Positions 3,340 to 41,427 of a stretch of DNA of 47,446 bases are shown in pieces. The notes under the pieces are model-generated. The model saw only the letters and a program-made list of their open reading frames with translations. It did not search any database and was not told where the DNA came from. The DNA comes from Oscillospiraceae bacterium. GTDB lineage: Bacteria > Bacillota > Clostridia > Oscillospirales > Oscillospiraceae. Position 1 is the stretch's first letter. Each line of letters opens with the position of its first letter. The DNA is taken from the NCBI GenBank assembly GCA_017406005.1, contig JAFQZI010000079.1:1-47446 (forward strand). Direction: 5' to 3'. A program made the translations under genes and the position numbers.

Positions 3340-4104
3340 CTATAAGATTTCTATTTTTTGGAGTGCTTCCTCCACTCCCTTGAGCATAGCGGAATCTGCG
3401 GGAAGATCCAACACACTCTGCCCCCGGATGTCGTTGGCGGCAAAGGCACTGTCCGCAGGGATCGCCGTGAGAATCTCAACTCCGGGAAGACTGATCAGAT
3501 CGACCAGTTCCGGGTTTGTCACACGGTTGATGATAATACCGATGCGGTCATATGCGATGAGTTCATCGGCAACACTCTTGATGGTGGAAATTACCTGCCC
3601 GCCCTTCTTGCTCTGGTCGGTAATCAGCAGAAGATGCGTGACTTTTTCCATGACGCGGCGCTGAATCTGTTCAATACCGGCTTCCCCGTCAATGACAACA
3701 TAGTCAAAACTGCCGGCAAGAAGACCGATCACTTCTTTCAGATAGGAGTTGACTTTGCAATAGCATCCGGAACTCTCAGGCCTGCCGATGGCAAGAAAGG
3801 CAAATCCCGGCAGTTCGACCAGCGCATCAAAAATCCGGAACCGCGCCTCACTGAGCAGTTCAAGTGCTTCCCGTGTTTCTCCATTCTCTACACTGTCGAC
3901 AATGCTCATGCGAATATCGTCCAGCGTAAGCTTTACATCCACGCCAAGCGCTACGGAAAGGCCAACCGCAGGGTCTGCGTCGATTGCAAGAATCTTCTTA
4001 TCCGGATACCGTTCGGCTAAAAGCCGTACGATGGAAGCACAGATCGAGGTCTTGCCAACGCCGCCCTTACCGGCCACCGTAATAATCTTGGCTTCATTTC
4101 CCAT
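3340..4104 (-). CDS. CooC/MinD-type P-loop ATPase, likely metal-centre accessory protein
   Basis: The 254-residue protein opens with a deviant Walker A, GKGGVGKTS (residues 12-20, signature lysine 13), found in SIMIBI ATPases such as CooC, NifH and MinD. It has a CXC motif at Cys114/Cys116. In CooC the equivalent CXC pair sits at the dimer interface and binds nickel or zinc during CO dehydrogenase maturation. DYVVIDGEAGIEQ (residues 134-146) is the Walker B region. No CO dehydrogenase or acetyl-CoA synthase gene is visible; the gene instead leads the dehydratase operon. I infer a role in cluster or metal handling for that enzyme. A purple-black CooC role for a distant CODH cannot be excluded. 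The start is supported by a GGGGGGA ribosome site upstream. Confidence 0.8.
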   Translation of the reverse strand: MGNEAKIITVAGKGGVGKTSICASIVRLLAERYPDKKILAIDADPAVGLSVALGVDVKLTLDDIRMSIVDSVENGETREALELLSEARFRIFDALVELPGFAFLAIGRPESSGCYCKVNSYLKEVIGLLAGSFDYVVIDGEAGIEQIQRRVMEKVTHLLLITDQSKKGGQVISTIKSVADELIAYDRIGIIINRVTNPELVDLISLPGVEILTAIPADSAFAANDIRGQSVLDLPADSAMLKGVEEALQKIEIL

Positions 4105-34469: not shown

Positions 34470-34784
34470 TTACTTGCCACATGCACATTTTACAGTTTCA
34501 TCCGTTTCGCAATCGCAACGGGCATAGGTTGCCACCATATCACGAAAGCTCTCAACTCCTTCACGGGAGATGGAATAATACATCCATTTGCCCTCTTTTC
34601 GACTGCTTACAAGTTCGCTATCACAGAGGATCTTCATATGATGAGAAAGTGTTGGCTGCGTGATATTCAGTTCCTCTAACAGCACACAACCGCACTTTTC
34701 GCCATGCTGTAGCGCCAACATGATCGCAAGGCGGTTTTCATCAGCCAGCGCCTTAACTTTTCGGACGTCTTCACGAAATCCCAT
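34470..34784 (-). CDS. arsR: ArsR-family metalloregulatory repressor
   Basis: The 104-residue protein is a winged-helix repressor. KCGCVLLEELNITQPTLSHH contains the sensor pair Cys31 and Cys33 at the start of the recognition region, the place of the ELCVC motif in the As(III)-sensing type. A C-terminal cysteine set (CDCETDETVKCACGK) may add ligands. The start at 34784 has GGGAGG upstream. It represses its own operon through the palindrome at 34824-34851 and is released by arsenite. Confidence 0.93.
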   Translation of the reverse strand: MGFREDVRKVKALADENRLAIMLALQHGEKCGCVLLEELNITQPTLSHHMKILCDSELVSSRKEGKWMYYSISREGVESFRDMVATYARCDCETDETVKCACGK

Positions 34785-34811
34785 GTTTATCGCCCTCCCT
34801 GAGATGACCAA

Positions 34812-34851
34812 ATGATAACACAAACATTTATAGTTGTCAATATGTAAATGT
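34812..34851 (-). promoter_or_regulatory. ars promoter and ArsR operator
   Basis: On the minus strand TTGACA (34840-34835) and TATCAT (34817-34812) are 17 bases apart. An inverted repeat, ACATTTA at 34824-34830 and TAAATGT at 34845-34851, overlaps the spacer and -35 box, which is where ArsR proteins bind. Confidence 0.8.
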
Positions 34852-34893
34852 GAAATAAAGACGTTTTCTTTTGATTGCTTCTTACAAGCAGAA

Positions 34894-34926
34894 AGCCCAC
34901 AAGCCGTCAAGCCTGTGGGCGATTGC
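34894..34926. terminator. hairpin at the end of the mobile-element operon
   Basis: GCCCACA and TGTGGGC pair around a 13-base loop containing AAGCC and CAAGCC. Six T residues follow on the plus strand after GATTGC. A near copy lies at 35478-35506. Confidence 0.5.
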
Positions 34927-35511: not shown

Positions 35512-35871
35512 CTATGGTTTATCAATGACCTCTGCCAGCCCCAAATTAAAGATCGCAGCAGTCCGATCTTGCAGGACAAACCCGGGCACTCGGTATGAGC
35601 GATCAGAATCCCATTGATACATCCTCGCGATTATTTGGCAAAGTTTCATGCTGCTCACTTCCATTCCGTGTGTCCCGGTTCCCGTATAAACAGTGAGCGG
35701 GACACGGTGAGAATGAAAGTCTTTTTTCGTATAGGGAGCGATCGCCAGAGTGTGACCGTTTTCCTGCAGGTAGAAACGGATGAATCTCGGGCACCCTATT
35801 CCCCGCAAGGAGTCCACAAAGACGTGTATACGGTTAGCTCGGAGATAAAAGGAAATGAAAGTTTCATTCAA
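35512..35871 (-). CDS. recombinase-associated module protein, short divergent copy
   Basis: The 119-residue protein follows the pattern of the module found in the recombinase C-terminus: a beta-type stretch (ISFYLRANRIHVFVDSL), then RFIRFYLQENGHTLAIAPY, then a helical segment (SMKLCQIIARMYQWDSDRSY) and a last strand with VPGFVLQDRTAAIFNL. It lacks the N-terminal GYQV part. The relationship is by pattern and position rather than by high identity. It is coupled to the previous gene by an ATGA overlap. Confidence 0.5.
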   Translation of the reverse strand: MNETFISFYLRANRIHVFVDSLRGIGCPRFIRFYLQENGHTLAIAPYTKKDFHSHRVPLTVYTGTGTHGMEVSSMKLCQIIARMYQWDSDRSYRVPGFVLQDRTAAIFNLGLAEVIDKP

Positions 35872-36311
35872 CTCTTTTCCACCTTCTTGGTTTTCCAGTT
35901 CTCTGCATTGGAAAAATCAAAGAGCAGCATAATCTTGTTTCGGGCGGACACCAGCCTGCCCACGGCTCGATAGTTGTATTCAGGGTCCAATCCCCATGCC
36001 CGGTAGATCTCATCACCAAACAGCTTAGATTCCATATTACGGACGCTATGCTCTTTCTGCCCTTTAATCCACCGAATGCTATCTTTGTCGGATGAGGGCG
36101 TTGGAGAAACCAGTAGGCACTTTGTCGACGGGTTGACCTCCAGCCGGACATACTCACAGTTGTTCAGTGCACTAAGCGACATGCGACTAAACGAAATCTT
36201 TGTAGGCCAGATTGTGCACGTGGGGTCAGCTTTGCGGGGCAAGTGCAAGAACATCTCGGATTTCACTATTTGGAAACCATCGAGGCTCAGTTCTTCAACG
36301 GCGCTTATCAT
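35868..36311 (-). CDS. recombinase-associated module protein, 147-residue copy
   Basis: The protein carries the module almost end to end: LDGFQIVKSEMF, PTCTIWPTKISFSRMSL, EYVRLEVNPSTKCLLVSP, DSIRW, and RAWGLDPEYNYRAVG followed by IMLLFDF. These match in order the segments of the recombinase tail and of the 200-residue protein upstream. No catalytic motif is evident. It starts 13 bases after the 200-residue gene ends. A DNA- or recombinase-binding role is the best inference. Confidence 0.6.
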   Translation of the reverse strand: MISAVEELSLDGFQIVKSEMFLHLPRKADPTCTIWPTKISFSRMSLSALNNCEYVRLEVNPSTKCLLVSPTPSSDKDSIRWIKGQKEHSVRNMESKLFGDEIYRAWGLDPEYNYRAVGRLVSARNKIMLLFDFSNAENWKTKKVEKS

Positions 36312-36324
36312 TTTCTTTTACCTC

Positions 36325-36927
36325 CTATGTTTTGTCTGTTGTGATATAGCCATCCGCGAGATCGATTTTAAAGGACTCTTCATGTTGCTCAACCGGGGTG
36401 CCGAAGTAATCCCGCCAGTCGCCGGGCAGATAGGATTTGGATTTCTTACCGCTCGTAAACAGCTCGAAATCTGTCAGCCTGAACAGAAATAACATCTCAC
36501 CATCGCATACAGCCGGGTTGCCCATCATCTTATAACGGTACTGCGGGTCCCAGCCCATCAGGTCAAAAACCTTCGCAGCAAAGATTTTGCAAAGCAAATC
36601 ACGGTTTGAGATTTCTTTGCTCCCGCCTCCTCTGGACCAGCGGAGTGAGTCAGGTGCATCCGGACTGCATGGCCGTATAATCAGGCGCTTTTGCACGGGG
36701 TGGATCAGAATTTGAATATGCGTGACCCCCGGAAACCTCCGGAGGCAGGCCATATTGAACTTGATTCGGTTTTCCCATATGGTGATGGCGGGCTCCCTCG
36801 AATGAGCAAAAAGCTCTGCTTTGGTTACCTGATATCCTGCAAGGTTCACTAAAACCTCGGGGTCCTCTGTTGGCTCCTGTAGAATTGTGCTCCTGGTGAA
36901 ATATCGTTCAAGTTCCTGATTGTCCAT
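36325..36927 (-). CDS. recombinase-associated module protein, 200-residue copy
   Basis: Residues 29-154 repeat the recombinase tail: LAGYQVTKAELF, AITIWENRIKFNMACLRRF, THIQILIHPVQKRLIIRPC, DSLRW, MGWDPQYRYKMMG and MLFLFRL. The similarity continues into LPGDWRDYFG, which matches CPEEWDDDFG near recombinase residue 540, so this is a free-standing version of the whole recombinase C-terminus. The start lies 20 bases inside the recombinase gene. I do not know a named family for it. Confidence 0.65.
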   Translation of the reverse strand: MDNQELERYFTRSTILQEPTEDPEVLVNLAGYQVTKAELFAHSREPAITIWENRIKFNMACLRRFPGVTHIQILIHPVQKRLIIRPCSPDAPDSLRWSRGGGSKEISNRDLLCKIFAAKVFDLMGWDPQYRYKMMGNPAVCDGEMLFLFRLTDFELFTSGKKSKSYLPGDWRDYFGTPVEQHEESFKIDLADGYITTDKT

Positions 36928-38749
36928 TGTCTGCCTCCATACCTCTCATTAAAGAATCCATTGATAATTGCAGCGACTCCGGTGTCGGTGCGGTGTATTG
37001 CTCAATACCAGGAGCGAGGATGCTCTTGGCTTGGGAGTGCCATTCAGATTTCGGCGCAATGTAATAGAACCCGTTTTCAAGTGTATGCTCATAGAACTCG
37101 GCTCCAAAGTCGTCATCCCACTCCTCCGGGCACAGGTTAACTCTACGCCTACCACTTGTATCCTCGCCCTCAGACGGAGGTACAAGCACCGCAGGCACAG
37201 CGTTTGGTAGGTTGTAGACGATTATCTGTTCTGAGCCCCGGCAAGCCCACGTTCCTCTGGTTTTATACACATAGTCTGGATTCCATCCCATGATGCTGTA
37301 TAGTGCATTCCCGAAATGCTGGCAGTTGAGTGTCTTGACATATACAGGCTTATCAGGGTCAGGACGCCATTTAATACTGTGCGCATCACTGCGCTGGCAC
37401 GGCCTGATGGCGATCTTACGTTCTGCCGGGTGAAGGAGTAGCTGAATGTATGCAACGTTTTCAAATTTCTGTACGCAGAACTTGTTAAAGCTGATTCGAT
37501 CGTTTGAAATCGTTAGGCATGGGCCTTCAAACCGTATCTGCATAAACTGCCCCCTGACTACTTGATAACCCTCAAGGTCAAATGCGCTCAGCTTTCGCTT
37601 CTCAACGCGCACCGTTCCCGTGACCTGCCTGACGCTGTTTGAAATATCGTAATAGGTGCCGGGATCGTCATTGACCCAGTGATGGTTGATAGGAATAAAA
37701 CCCCGGAAGATGCCTTCGTCGATCACGTGCATCATCGGAAGCCCGCCTCGAATATGGTGTTTCCGGTTTTCCATCAGGACCTGCACTGCCTCAAACTTCT
37801 CAACCGTTACAATGGCTTCGTGGCGGTCCTTGTATAGGTATTGATCTCGGTCCTGTTTGTTCTTTTTGTGCTTGTGCTCATACAGATCAGCAGTGAAGGT
37901 TTTCCAAGTCAATACGTTGCCGCAGTACCGCTCGTTTGTGAGAATGTAGCCGATTGAGGCTGTGTTCCATCCGGTCCCGCCGGATTTCGTTTCACAGCCT
38001 ATATCAGTCAGGAAAGATGCGATTTGCTCCTGCGACCAACCTGAGAGATATGCGTCGTAGATAAACCGGACCACCTTTGCCTCTGCTTCATTCACTTCGA
38101 GCGGCGCGTATTTGATATACCGCCCCGTAACATCCTTTGGGCGATCATAGCCGAGTGGTGCAGGCGTCAGCAGCTTTCCGTCTTTAAACCGCTGTTGAAG
38201 CGACCAGTTCATGGCCTCACTTTTTTTGACGGATTCTTCCTGTGCGAACGTAGCGAGGAAGGACAACATGAATTCGGTATTCTCCGAAAGTGTGTACAAG
38301 TTGTCGGATTCAAAGTAAACTCCGACCGGTGGATTCTGCCCCTTCAGCATCCGGATTAAGGAGATACAGTCAACAAGGTTTCGGGCAAATCGTGATACGC
38401 TTTTAGTGATGATGAGATCATATTCTCCGCGCTTACAGGCTTCGATCATTTCATTGAAAGCATCACGGTTTTTTAGCGAGGTCCCGGATATACCCTCGTC
38501 GGCATAAATCTGCTTCAGTTCCCAATTGGGATGTTCCAGAACCAGTTGTTTGTAGTGGGCCTGCTGGAGCTCGAAGGAGGAAAGCTGTTCATCATTATCC
38601 GTTGAAACCCGACAGTATGCACACGCCCGAAAAGGGTACCCTGCGCCATAGAGATCTACCTTTGGCTTGGCTGGGATGAATGTTTTTTCTCCTGTATCCT
38701 CGCGCCTGTAAAGCTGCCGCAATTCTTCTCTGGATTCATTGCTCGGCAT
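36908..38749 (-). CDS. large serine recombinase with novel C-terminal module
   Basis: The 613-residue protein has the resolvase catalytic domain (about residues 40-190) with YCRVSTDND, catalytic Ser49, and the arginine-rich VSRFARN at 118-124. The recombinase domain with LGYDRPKDVTGRYIKYAP lies at about 199-320. The zinc ribbon plus coiled coil that normally follow are not visible: no CX2C pairs occur after residue 275. Instead residues 393-516 form the module shared with the next two or three genes (LEGYQVVRG, LTISNDRISFNKFCVQKF, AYIQLLLHPAERKIAIRPC, MGWNPDYVYKTRG). It starts one base after the AAA ATPase ends. It probably integrates and excises the element. Confidence 0.9.
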   Translation of the reverse strand: MPSNESREELRQLYRREDTGEKTFIPAKPKVDLYGAGYPFRACAYCRVSTDNDEQLSSFELQQAHYKQLVLEHPNWELKQIYADEGISGTSLKNRDAFNEMIEACKRGEYDLIITKSVSRFARNLVDCISLIRMLKGQNPPVGVYFESDNLYTLSENTEFMLSFLATFAQEESVKKSEAMNWSLQQRFKDGKLLTPAPLGYDRPKDVTGRYIKYAPLEVNEAEAKVVRFIYDAYLSGWSQEQIASFLTDIGCETKSGGTGWNTASIGYILTNERYCGNVLTWKTFTADLYEHKHKKNKQDRDQYLYKDRHEAIVTVEKFEAVQVLMENRKHHIRGGLPMMHVIDEGIFRGFIPINHHWVNDDPGTYYDISNSVRQVTGTVRVEKRKLSAFDLEGYQVVRGQFMQIRFEGPCLTISNDRISFNKFCVQKFENVAYIQLLLHPAERKIAIRPCQRSDAHSIKWRPDPDKPVYVKTLNCQHFGNALYSIMGWNPDYVYKTRGTWACRGSEQIIVYNLPNAVPAVLVPPSEGEDTSGRRRVNLCPEEWDDDFGAEFYEHTLENGFYYIAPKSEWHSQAKSILAPGIEQYTAPTPESLQLSMDSLMRGMEADNGQSGT

Positions 38750-39733
38750 TTAATCATCCTCCCGCCATGTTTTGTCGCCTGGTAGCTGCCAGTACCAAAC
38801 GCCATCTTTTTTTATCGACCTTATGCCCATCTCCTTTTTTACGGAGAGAAGGGTCCGCTCACTGATGTTTGCACGTGAAAAGAGAGCCTGCACTTCAGAA
38901 GCCTTCATCGGTTCTGCTTCAAGCATTACCATAAGCATGTTTGCAGCCTGAGTCTGCTTGTTCATCTTCGGAGTTGGGATGTCCAGTCCATCTGGCGCAG
39001 CAGGACCTTCACCTTCAAGCCACTGAACTCGACGCTGTGAATCGATGGTGAAATATTGGTCGCGACCTTTGGGCGTAAGGCTGCTTTTGATATGGTGTAA
39101 AACCCTTACGTCAGAGTCATTATCCGTTGTGCTTATCTGGATGACACTTCTGGCAGCCGCTATGAGGTCGATGCTACCGAGACTTCGGTACAGGTCCTTT
39201 GACCCTTCCTTTTTGTTTAGATGGCCGATCAAGACGATAGCGCAATCATAGAGTGAAGCCCAAACAGCTAACTGTCGGAGCATTTTTCTCATTCCAGCAG
39301 CATTGGATATATCTGCATCACCGAGGTAAGCCTGAACTGGATCGATGACCAGTAATTTTGCATTGAAGTCAGCTATGGCACGGCGTATCTTTTCATCTCC
39401 AAGTGTCAGCCAGTCCATCTCCTCATCTAAAAAAGCAACATTACTGCAATCCGCTCCGGCTGCTGTAAGTCGAGGCTTAATTGTGTCTCCAGCCCCATCT
39501 TCGGAGCATTGGTAGATGACGTGCATAGGTTTTTTGATCTTCCTGCCATCTGGTGAAAAACTGCCATTTGAGATTGCAGAGATGATGTTCATCATCACAG
39601 TAGATTTTCCGCAACCCGGATCACCTTGAAGAAGCGTTATTTTCCCGAATGGGATATACGGATACCACAGCCAGTCAACATTAGTTGCTGTCACGTTGCT
39701 GTATAATTTGAGCTGGCCATTCAACAATTCCAT
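38750..39733 (-). CDS. RepA-like AAA ATPase / helicase of a mobile element
   Basis: The protein of 327 residues belongs to the RecA-like RepA/DnaB group. GDPGCGKST at 37-45 is Walker A; LLVIDPVQAYLGDAD is the Walker B region; VLIGHLNKKEGSKDLYRSLGS carries the motif that follows in RepA-type hexameric helicases. A winged-helix-like C-terminus (MKASEVQALFSRANISERTL) follows. Such ATPases accompany serine recombinases in Firmicute integrative elements and may replicate the excised circle. The ATG at 39733 is used; a GTG 21 bases upstream is an alternative because the ribosome site AAAGGA is somewhat distant. Confidence 0.85.
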   Translation of the reverse strand: MELLNGQLKLYSNVTATNVDWLWYPYIPFGKITLLQGDPGCGKSTVMMNIISAISNGSFSPDGRKIKKPMHVIYQCSEDGAGDTIKPRLTAAGADCSNVAFLDEEMDWLTLGDEKIRRAIADFNAKLLVIDPVQAYLGDADISNAAGMRKMLRQLAVWASLYDCAIVLIGHLNKKEGSKDLYRSLGSIDLIAAARSVIQISTTDNDSDVRVLHHIKSSLTPKGRDQYFTIDSQRRVQWLEGEGPAAPDGLDIPTPKMNKQTQAANMLMVMLEAEPMKASEVQALFSRANISERTLLSVKKEMGIRSIKKDGVWYWQLPGDKTWREDD

Positions 39734-39875
39734 AGCTCTGCATAGTCCTTTCACGGTCAAAATAAAGCCTGAGACCAACAAAACCCTAACGAGGAATATC
39801 ATACTTGCATCGTTGCCGTATCACCACAAACAGGTAGTGAAATTTAGCTGTCCGAATTAACTGTGAGTTAAATCA

Positions 39876-39968: not shown

Positions 39969-40007
39969 ACGACGACCTTGGCGGAGCCGATTTCAGGAGG
40001 GGTAAAC

Positions 40008-40355
40008 GTGGCCATTGACTGTGAAAGCATCGGCGCTCGTATCAAATATCATAGGCTGAAGAACCAGCTTTCTCAGGAGCAGCTCGCGGAGAAGGCAGAG
40101 CTTAGTAATGTCTATATTAGTTATCTGGAACGGGGCGAAAGGATGCCCAGCCTCGATGCGGTAATCAACATTGCAAATGCGCTCAATGTCTCCGCCGACG
40201 ATCTGCTGTCTGGCTGTTTGCTGGTATCAAATTCCCTGCAGGACGCGAGAGAGTTTGATACGCTTTATGGCTGTTCTTCAGAAGAACTTAGTATCATTCT
40301 GAAATGCATGGCGTTTCTCAAAGATCTGTTGAAAGGATACAAAATCACAAAATAA
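40008..40355 (+). CDS. XRE-family helix-turn-helix regulator
   Basis: The 115-residue protein has a Cro/C1-type HTH in its first 60 residues (IGARIKYHRLKNQLSQEQLA, then ELSNVYISYLERGERMP). The GTG start at 40008 has AGGAGG seven bases upstream; an upstream ATG in frame is not so supported. It is divergent from the ATPase-recombinase operon and likely controls it, and perhaps itself, through the inverted repeat. Confidence 0.85.
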   Translation: MAIDCESIGARIKYHRLKNQLSQEQLAEKAELSNVYISYLERGERMPSLDAVINIANALNVSADDLLSGCLLVSNSLQDAREFDTLYGCSSEELSIILKCMAFLKDLLKGYKITK

Positions 40356-40440
40356 AAAATGGCCCGCCAAGTCGCATGCGCACTCCGGCACATCTTCCGG
40401 GGTGTGTCTGCGATAGACGGGCCTATCGTTTAACCATTTT
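40354..40440. terminator. large structured element after the XRE gene
   Basis: AAAATGG/CCATTTT and GGCCCG/CGGGCC form a long base-paired stem. It encloses further pairing of TCGCA/TGCGA and CCGG/CCGG. It probably terminates XRE transcription and may act in both directions. Confidence 0.5.
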
Positions 40441-40621
40441 ATTGCACTGTGCTCACCATGATCTCACGGCCATTCTGAAACTTGAAAGTCAAATCCCCGT
40501 TATGATACACGGTTACATTATCAATGACGTCCAGCCATAGCCGCTCATCGAAATGCTCCAAGGATATTTGCGACAACATACTCAGCAAACTTTTTAATGT
40601 AATTATTGATGCCGGAATCAC
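40439..40621 (-). pseudogene. C-terminal remnant of another serine recombinase
   Basis: ISLEHFDERLWLDVIDNVTV followed by YHNGDLTFKFQNGREI is the typical extreme C-terminus of large serine recombinases or integrases. The rest of the gene is missing: upstream sequence on the minus strand has no continuation of the family. This is a second recombinase, unlike the intact one, so the region has hosted more than one element. Confidence 0.55.
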
Positions 40622-40957: not shown

Positions 40958-40994
40958 AAAAGGTAGATAATTCTATCAAAATTACCTACCTTTT
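40958..40994. repeat. hairpin 4 of the cluster
   Basis: AAAAGGTAG and CTACCTTTT pair around a 19-base loop. It ends one base before the tRNA-like scar. Confidence 0.65.
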
Positions 40995-40995
40995 A

Positions 40996-41018
40996 TGGCG
41001 CAGAAGGAGGGATTCGAA
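40996..41018 (-). other. tRNA 3'-end fragment, likely attachment-site scar
   Basis: Read on the minus strand, TTCGAATCCCTCCTTCTGCG followed by CCA is the T-loop, 3' T-stem, acceptor strand, discriminator and CCA of a tRNA. The 5' part of the T-arm and the rest of the cloverleaf are absent; the sequence upstream of TTCGAA does not pair with CCCTC. This is what remains when a tyrosine integrase recombines inside a tRNA T-arm. The stretch from here to 41427 is AT-rich and contains no gene I can support. Confidence 0.65.
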
Positions 41019-41427
41019 TTGCCAGACGCGTAAAAATCTACCTGAATCTAAGCAAATGTATAATATAATATTGTAGAAGCAAAGTCAACAGCTACAATTT
41101 AGTGAAATCTGATAGAATCAAAAGCAAAGCGTTAATGGGGAAAAATGTGGGGTAAAATAGGATGCATTCTTTTATGATTCAACAGCAATACAAAAGAAAT
41201 CATATGATAATAATCGCCTTGCAGATTGGATAATAACAGTCTGTTTTCCTGTTTAATAACTAATCATCCTTACAGAGCAGGATTTCCCGTGACATTATTA
41301 TTTATAAAATATCGGAAATAACAACTATATAAGGCGCTCTCATTAGCCGTTAAGTTTAGTCAAAAAATGATATATTCTTAAGCTCAACTTATATATACGT
41401 CAGTTGATTTTCTATACCAATTTTTTA

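Follow-up and report, generated by a model that had tools for sequence, protein, structure and literature searches.

A recombinase tail module that recurs as free proteins encoded in the same operon

In a 47,446 nt stretch of DNA from an Oscillospiraceae bacterium (contig JAFQZI010000079.1 of assembly GCA_017406005.1; hereafter the window), a large serine recombinase (LSR), REC, is encoded in one operon with three small proteins that we call P200, P147 and P119. Their coordinates and those of neighbouring features are collected in Table 1. The genes are tightly packed: the REC stop overlaps the P200 start by 20 nt, P200 and P147 are separated by 13 nt, and P147 and P119 overlap by 4 nt. A module of about 130 residues is found both in the C-terminal tail of REC and in the three small proteins, that is, in cis and in trans within a single operon.

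The module was first proposed in a sequence-only reading of the window, and pairwise BLASTP supports it. REC residues 391-555 aligned with P200 residues 28-182 (31% identity, E 3e-28), REC 390-517 with P147 8-136 (26% identity, E 5e-17), and P200 with P147 (29% identity, E 1e-24). These boundaries agree within a few residues with the ranges first given, and the alignment also confirmed a match between the REC tail and P200 outside the module, P-x-x-W-x-x-x-FG. P119 had been described as a weaker version. Pairwise, the similarity is indeed weak (E 2.8 against REC, which is not significant, and E 0.003 against P147, which is marginal), but it is clear when family profiles are compared. Using alignments of 38 rows for the tail, 80 for P200 and 62 for P119, we obtained E 6.6e-18 (probability 99.0) for tail against P119, E 1.3e-16 (98.8) for P200 against P119 and E 5e-50 (100) for tail against P200. 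As controls, the alignments were reversed in three comparisons and had their columns shuffled in five, and no probability exceeded 0.7%. As judged from these alignments, the REC tail (residues ~390-555 of 613), P200, P147 and P119 are old paralogues of one ~130-residue module.

The copies had been described as tandem, which would suggest recent duplicates. This does not hold: the other module copies are 26-34% identical to P200, and in a tree of 108 rows the sequences sort by gene and not by element, the six groups requiring 5 changes, the minimum possible. The P119 clade (support 96/84), the P147 clade (100/99) and a clade of tail, P200 and P147 together (100/98) were recovered; tail and P200 individually do not form supported clades, and several end branches are long. 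As the rows group by gene, the copies look old and appear to have been kept side by side. P147 looks like an addition nearly confined to the clade of the window.

None of the free proteins of the window reached a Pfam or NCBIfam cut-off, and none had a match in PHROGs. Members of the P200 and P119 families gave weak, scattered Pfam matches, most often to DUF6128 (17 of 80 P200 members, best E 0.0028). Families of recombination directionality factors (RDFs) or excisionases were not matched by the window proteins in any of the three libraries, nor by the family members in Pfam. Among PDB sequences, neither the P119 family (best E 0.34) nor the P200 family (no match) found a significant counterpart. 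The module is thus covered by no curated family among those searched, in line with the original observation that it had no name. An AbrB/SpoVT fold of the PF04014 type for P119, an idea that arose by eye, was rejected, as four module alignments compared by hhalign with nine AbrB-type sequences gave probabilities of 0.1-0.7; the AbrB profile used was shallow. Literature searches covered the order and family of the Heliusvirales, LSR parts, comEC prophages, multi-recombinase systems and phi1207.3/Tn1207.1. Among the matches listed, titles and the opening parts of abstracts in the open literature contained no description of the module; subscription papers lay mostly, and preprints wholly, outside this search.

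REC itself has the domains of an LSR in the broad sense, a resolvase-type PF00239 domain and a PF07508 DNA-binding domain. Ser49 is present in 75 of 76 aligned rows (the remaining row has a gap), and Arg120 and Arg123 in all 76; we take these three residues to be the catalytic ones. REC is accordingly predicted from its conserved residues to be the cutting subunit. In ordinary serine integrases a zinc ribbon and a coiled coil contact the attachment sites and gate the direction of the reaction. Past residue 290, the cysteine pattern of the zinc ribbon was found in 0/164 REC proteins vs 131/142 other LSRs of the same loci, or 0/146 vs 112/122 when only distinct sequences are counted. These counts refer to a relaxed version of the pattern; the narrower one used first scored 0 in both groups. 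Pfam likewise gave no zinc-ribbon match in the REC of the window. By sequence, the ~130-aa module stands in REC where other LSRs have the zinc ribbon. Two variants of the REC region were seen among the relatives. Directly upstream of REC, a gene of ~200 aa with only the resolvase catalytic domain is found in L038-L042, L048, L173, L198, L207, L210 and L211. In a subgroup with a REC of ~720-750 aa (L171, L174, L175, L181, L185, L200, L201, L209 and L237), REC and P200 are spaced by 0.7-0.85 kb, and in L237 a 260-aa gene lies between them.

To describe the gene set in relatives we annotated 160 loci found via P200, namely the best 80 of 225 confirmed loci on genome contigs and the best 80 of 125 on viral contigs, some of them near-duplicates. 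By identity to the P200 of the window they divide into 61 window-type loci (at least 59%) and 99 Heliusvirales-type loci (at most 43%); the denominators below count loci with enough sequence. The relatives are mostly Clostridia prophages ('Ca. Heliusvirales') and islands, and all five gut phage records that we opened are filed as 'Ca. Heliusvirales'. REC lies upstream of P200 on the same strand in 88/89 Heliusvirales-type and 56/59 window-type loci, and P119 follows P200 within 1.5 kb in 93/94 and 44/50, respectively. The order REC - P200-like - P119-like is nearly invariant in the relatives. A second P200-like gene is present in 48/50 window-type loci vs 1/94 of the Heliusvirales type, the ATPase in 27/52 window-type loci, and a helix-turn-helix (HTH) match at most 2.5 kb upstream of REC in 35/49 window-type and 53/67 other loci.

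Because these loci were collected via P200, a reverse test starting from the tail profile matters. In 391 genomes of the class, this profile matched 10, the genome of the window included. Six of them encode a tailed REC, and all six also encode P200 and P119. Two of the other four carry stand-alone ~130-aa modules (two in G538, one in G559). The last two, G315 and G508, had weak matches (E 7e-5 and 8e-5) that were not accepted, and the stretch in G315 showed no module match. The P119 profile matched 10 of the 391 genomes, G402 and G356 among them, which lack a tailed REC, and in a sample from the family 17 of 200 genomes had a match. Downstream of P119, two ParB-like genes (e.g., L032:7470-9333 and L240:3863-5720) continue the operon in 65/76 Heliusvirales-type vs 0/32 window-type loci; the second gene of the pair matches PF20188 and PHROG 1033. 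At L060:9680-11832 the neighbours of a window-type operon are a serine recombinase of 555 aa and, at some distance, a relaxase gene. This recombinase adjoins a gene with sigma-70 regions 2 and 4, which may point to an element intervening in a sigma-factor gene.

In some lineages the tail is encoded separately. In L035, L050 and L051 only 5-6 nt separate the end of a tail-less recombinase from a module gene, which encodes 155, 158 and 124 aa, respectively; the recombinase has 404 aa in L035 and 400 aa in L050, and that of L051 is cut by the contig end. A split REC in L043 was dropped owing to many N at the junction. The streptococcal phages phi1207.3, phi-SsuHCJ31 and phi-SsuNJ2 show the same order, a tail-less LSR and then a module gene, and the spacing over all six cases is 5-14 nt; the gut phage NatCom_18656 has a similar split arrangement. 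Orf2 of phi1207.3 (AY657002) is a REC-type LSR of 370 aa that has no zinc ribbon and shares 44.7% identity with the split LSR of L050 (RECN profile 7e-102; tblastn from the split LSR 5e-93). Orf3, a 'hypothetical protein' of 138 aa, matched the tail (2e-10), P200 (2e-11), P119 (8e-16) and split/solo (1.5e-24) profiles in hmmsearch, and the P119 family in hhalign (8.9e-12, probability 97.4). The stretch with orf2 and orf3 is labelled Tn1207.1 in related records. The existence of split lineages argues that the tail is a separable unit; whatever function it may have, it would exert it in both the fused and the free state.

Table 1. Features of the window and of related cpaF islands (islands as genome:contig:position).
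Feature	Position	Strand	Basis
REC, 613-aa large serine recombinase	36908..38749	-	PF00239, residues 43-192, E 1.3e-26; PF07508, residues 221-329, E 2.9e-24
REC tail, module plus P-W-FG extension, at the zinc-ribbon place of other LSRs	36908..37594	-	BLASTP, profiles
P200, 200-aa free module protein with extension	36325..36927	-	homology; REC upstream in relatives
P147, 147-aa second P200-like free module	35868..36311	-	BLASTP, locus counts, tree
P119, 119-aa divergent free module, TTG start	35512..35871	-	profile comparison
AAA_25 / KaiC-RepA-like ATPase, at the start of the operon	38750..39802	-	PF13481, E 6.7e-24
HTH repressor-like gene, divergent, facing the ATPase gene	39978..40355	+	PF01381, E 4.7e-16
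Remnant of 60 codons, C-terminus of a second large serine recombinase	40439..40621	-	phmmer, E 3.7e-11
ArsR-family regulator gene, downstream of the operon	34470-34910		
cpaF islands	G609:C49:27.6-47.2k; G610:C122:65.2-84.8k; G607:C12:410.3-432.2k; G613:C1 from 30.3k		

Around the operon, the DNA similarity between the window and its relatives ends near 35680 and 39720; what the window contains is therefore probably a small part left over from a larger element. In PHROGs the ATPase matches family 3123, annotated as unknown, with E 5e-17, and family 296, a 'DNA transposition protein', with E 2.4e-15. The recombinase remnant was matched to the paired second LSR of L141/L142 in a search limited to the LSRs of the loci, and its intact counterpart is the second gene of a recombinase pair that occupies the same place in some relatives, such as L080, L132, L138 and L145. 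By eye, positions 40990-41030 resemble the 3' end of a tRNA gene and are possibly an old attachment site; ARAGORN made no call there.

All elements that were examined in full carry another integrase. In the G603 prophage an LSR pair lies at the other end from REC, and the idea of REC as the sole recombinase of the L095 element was dropped because an LSR pair lies at its far end. A second LSR was absent from the examined stretch in 19/24 loci, a count that concerns the stretch and says nothing about the whole element. Islands of ~20-22 kb occur in one conserved cpaF stretch in four genera, with both ends found in three of them. They carry the REC cassette at one end, tyrosine recombinases and a DUF6262 protein at the other, and varied restriction-modification cargo between. 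The far end was Pfam-scanned in the ~20 kb island of G609, where it holds three tyrosine recombinases and the DUF6262 protein, and G607 and G610 have ORFs whose starts match those of this island. REC as sole integrase of the cpaF islands was dropped on these grounds.

In three streptococcal phages the LSR pair and REC could be compared across insertion sites. Identity between comEC- and rum-labelled phages amounts to 98.6-99.2% for REC and 97-99% for the module; for the LSR pair it is 72-73% when both phages are labelled comEC and 36-49% when the sites differ. A further phage, phi-SsuSH0918, occupies the same comEC junction. Its LSR pair shares 93-97% identity with the pair in phi-SsuHCJ31, and neither REC nor the module occurs in the first 20 kb of this phage, a stretch of 1 kb that reads as N excepted. 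Since the pair tracks the site and REC and module do not, the chromosomal insertion site seems to follow the LSR pair. This disfavours the suggestion that the free proteins are target-specificity modules, as far as the chromosomal site is concerned. The primary integrase of these elements is probably not REC, whose system looks accessory. By eye, the ends of phi1207.3 show an imperfect inverted repeat of ~24 bp around a GA dinucleotide, of which phi-SsuSH0918 has the left arm too; GA has been described as the target of phi1207.3 (PMC4260502). The REC-bearing block of the rum-labelled phages starts with the same arm, and the block may thus have passed between phages. In phi-SsuNJ2_rum (L343), similarity to phi1207.3 downstream of the module ends in the middle of an inverted repeat near 3784-3795, and this repeat is whole in phi1207.3 and phi-SsuHCJ31.

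Competence genes are recurrent neighbours. Cassette-bearing elements split comEC in G604 and G606, and in G611 comEC lies in pieces on two contigs. Fragments of comEC in or beside cassette elements were also seen in L097, L099, L103, L118, L122 and L032, and the cassette lies beside the C-part of comM (Mg_chelatase) in L162 and of dprA in L101 and L241. Restriction-modification or Schlafen/AlbA-type genes adjoin the cassette in several loci. A recombination site specific to REC was found neither by an inverted-repeat scan of 19 loci nor at the cargo border of three islands, and a search for an att core gave no direct repeat longer than 11 bp. An invertible switch around the cassette was rejected for 16 of the 19 loci, where inverted repeats were absent or no longer than in five shuffles; the repeats of L162 (17 nt), L080 (14) and L145 (13) are longer than in their shuffles.

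Because lineages with a tail-less recombinase and a separate module gene exist, partner subunits, one of the roles first suggested for the small proteins, remain the best reading. We consider it roughly a coin's toss whether REC and the free modules form a multi-subunit LSR in which the free modules partner the REC tail. In such an enzyme REC would cut, and the ~130-aa module would stand in for the zinc ribbon and coiled coil. The free modules, whose genes lie in one operon with REC, would be co-expressed with it and would join the tail, or each other and the tail, in a hetero-oligomer. This complex would bind DNA beside the crossover site and control synapsis or directionality. As the operon usually adjoins a repressor-like gene, it would probably be switched on at prophage induction. 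REC would work beside another integrase, perhaps at a site of its own in an accessory region near the attachment site, which is the weakest step of the proposal. Several observations weigh against partnership with a recombinase. P147 and the ATPase hardly occur outside a single clade, and the loci and island borders scanned showed no REC-specific recombination site. P119-like genes also occur where no tailed REC is present, next to two other LSRs in G402 and as two pieces in G356. Stand-alone module genes of ~130 aa at L232:6585-6977 and L234:6639-7031 have no recombinase within a 12-13 kb stretch. Phages phi-m46.1 (L339:2857-3210) and YS771 (L347:3307-3660) keep a shortened module ORF of 117 aa, with an acetyltransferase gene upstream of it and no REC in the end stretches examined. 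Since such stand-alone genes and genes without REC exist, the module may serve some purpose other than recombination. Another stand-alone gene of ~130 aa, at L233:5845-6219, lies beside phage-like genes and recombinase fragments.

The free modules could instead be RDFs, REC alone performing one reaction and P200 and P119 pairing with its tail to switch it to excision at induction. We regard this as unlikely. It would fit an operon beside a repressor-like gene and, in several elements, near the element end, and the module occupies the place of the zinc domain through which the RDF gp3 acts on phiC31 integrase (PMC5814800). However, a phage without REC occupies the same comEC site, and the free proteins match no RDF family. 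Each operon moreover encodes two to three different free modules, unlike the single RDFs that we know of. A further alternative, that the modules are DNA-binding regulators of the operon fused to a recombinase by chance, would account for the stand-alone chromosomal modules and for the REC-less module ORFs in the examined ends of phi-m46.1 and YS771. It is the hardest to believe, given the position of the module in the zinc-ribbon place of REC, the co-conservation of the gene set with REC, and the AbrB-like similarity that was looked for and not found.

Two further possibilities give REC the recombination itself but a different task. That REC and the modules are the integrase which sets the chromosomal insertion site is suggested by the position of REC within a few kb of the comEC, comM, dprA or cpaF junction in several elements. 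It is nonetheless highly doubtful, as REC and module stay near-identical across comEC and rum labels while the LSR pair differs by site, phi-SsuSH0918 uses the comEC junction with neither in the part compared, and the cpaF island and the G603 prophage have recombinases of their own. Slightly easier to entertain, though still improbable, is that REC and the modules shuffle or capture cargo (restriction-modification, resistance or sugar-use genes) beside the attachment site: near-identical REC blocks lie beside mef(A)/msr(D) in one case and a tagatose operon in another, and related cpaF islands carry type IIG or type I restriction-modification. Against this, no recognisable site was seen at the cargo border compared in three islands, and cargo commonly varies at attachment sites even where no enzyme is dedicated to the task.

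If the multi-subunit reading is extended to the relatives, these would represent a class of serine recombinases in which a separable module has replaced the zinc-ribbon/coiled-coil unit. Free modules assembled with the catalytic subunit would set site choice or direction, and the hetero-oligomer would serve accessory regions of gut prophages and defence islands. We offer this wider idea tentatively, expecting it to fail sooner than to hold. Serine integrases are in wide use for DNA editing, and a central question about them is how direction is set by the C-terminal part. In REC the usual C-terminal part is removed and its replacement also occurs as a free protein, fused or separate by lineage, which makes the question testable by mixing parts. 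The findings also offer a way into the unannotated genes of human gut phages and of known streptococcal prophages. The paper defining 'Ca. Heliusviridae' lists nine genes in common, and neither 'recombinase' nor 'integrase' is used in its main text (PMC9226167). A more recent paper on the order 'Ca. Heliusvirales' is cited in PMC12427128.

Compared with known systems, REC shares the resolvase and PF07508 domains with canonical large serine integrases of the phiC31, Bxb1 and A118 type, but differs in lacking the zinc-ribbon pattern, in the different module at that place and in having paralogues of it in trans. The N-terminal ~290 residues of REC also match the CcrA/B/C recombinases of SCC elements (CcrB model, E 5.7e-29), and some window-type loci resemble SCC in having several recombinases and an ATPase. 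REC scores 59-101 bits against CcrA, CcrB and CcrC cut-offs of 700-900 (CcrB 101 vs 900), however, and neither its tail nor its partners match. XisF of the cyanobacterial fdxN element is a serine recombinase that reportedly requires extra proteins, XisH and XisI, a feature which the REC system may share. The XisF model gave 61 bits, its cut-off being 375, and this match was limited to the shared N-terminal part; no XisH or XisI model was among the matches. The gin element of Bacillus cereus (GirA, GirB, GirC and GirX) also carries three serine recombinases, two of them as a pair, but GirC works with a separate factor, GirX (PMC5595907). The 2014 paper on phi1207.3 credits orf56/57 with integration and names three serine recombinases; orf2 is without a zinc ribbon in its table, and its passages on recombinases do not discuss orf3 (PMC4260502). 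Phage phi1207.3 differs from the window in that the module is separate and in one copy, without the P200/P119/P147 set and without a directly adjoining repressor or ATPase gene; it resembles the window in combining a zinc-ribbon-less REC-type LSR with a module protein, both encoded at the left end of the element.

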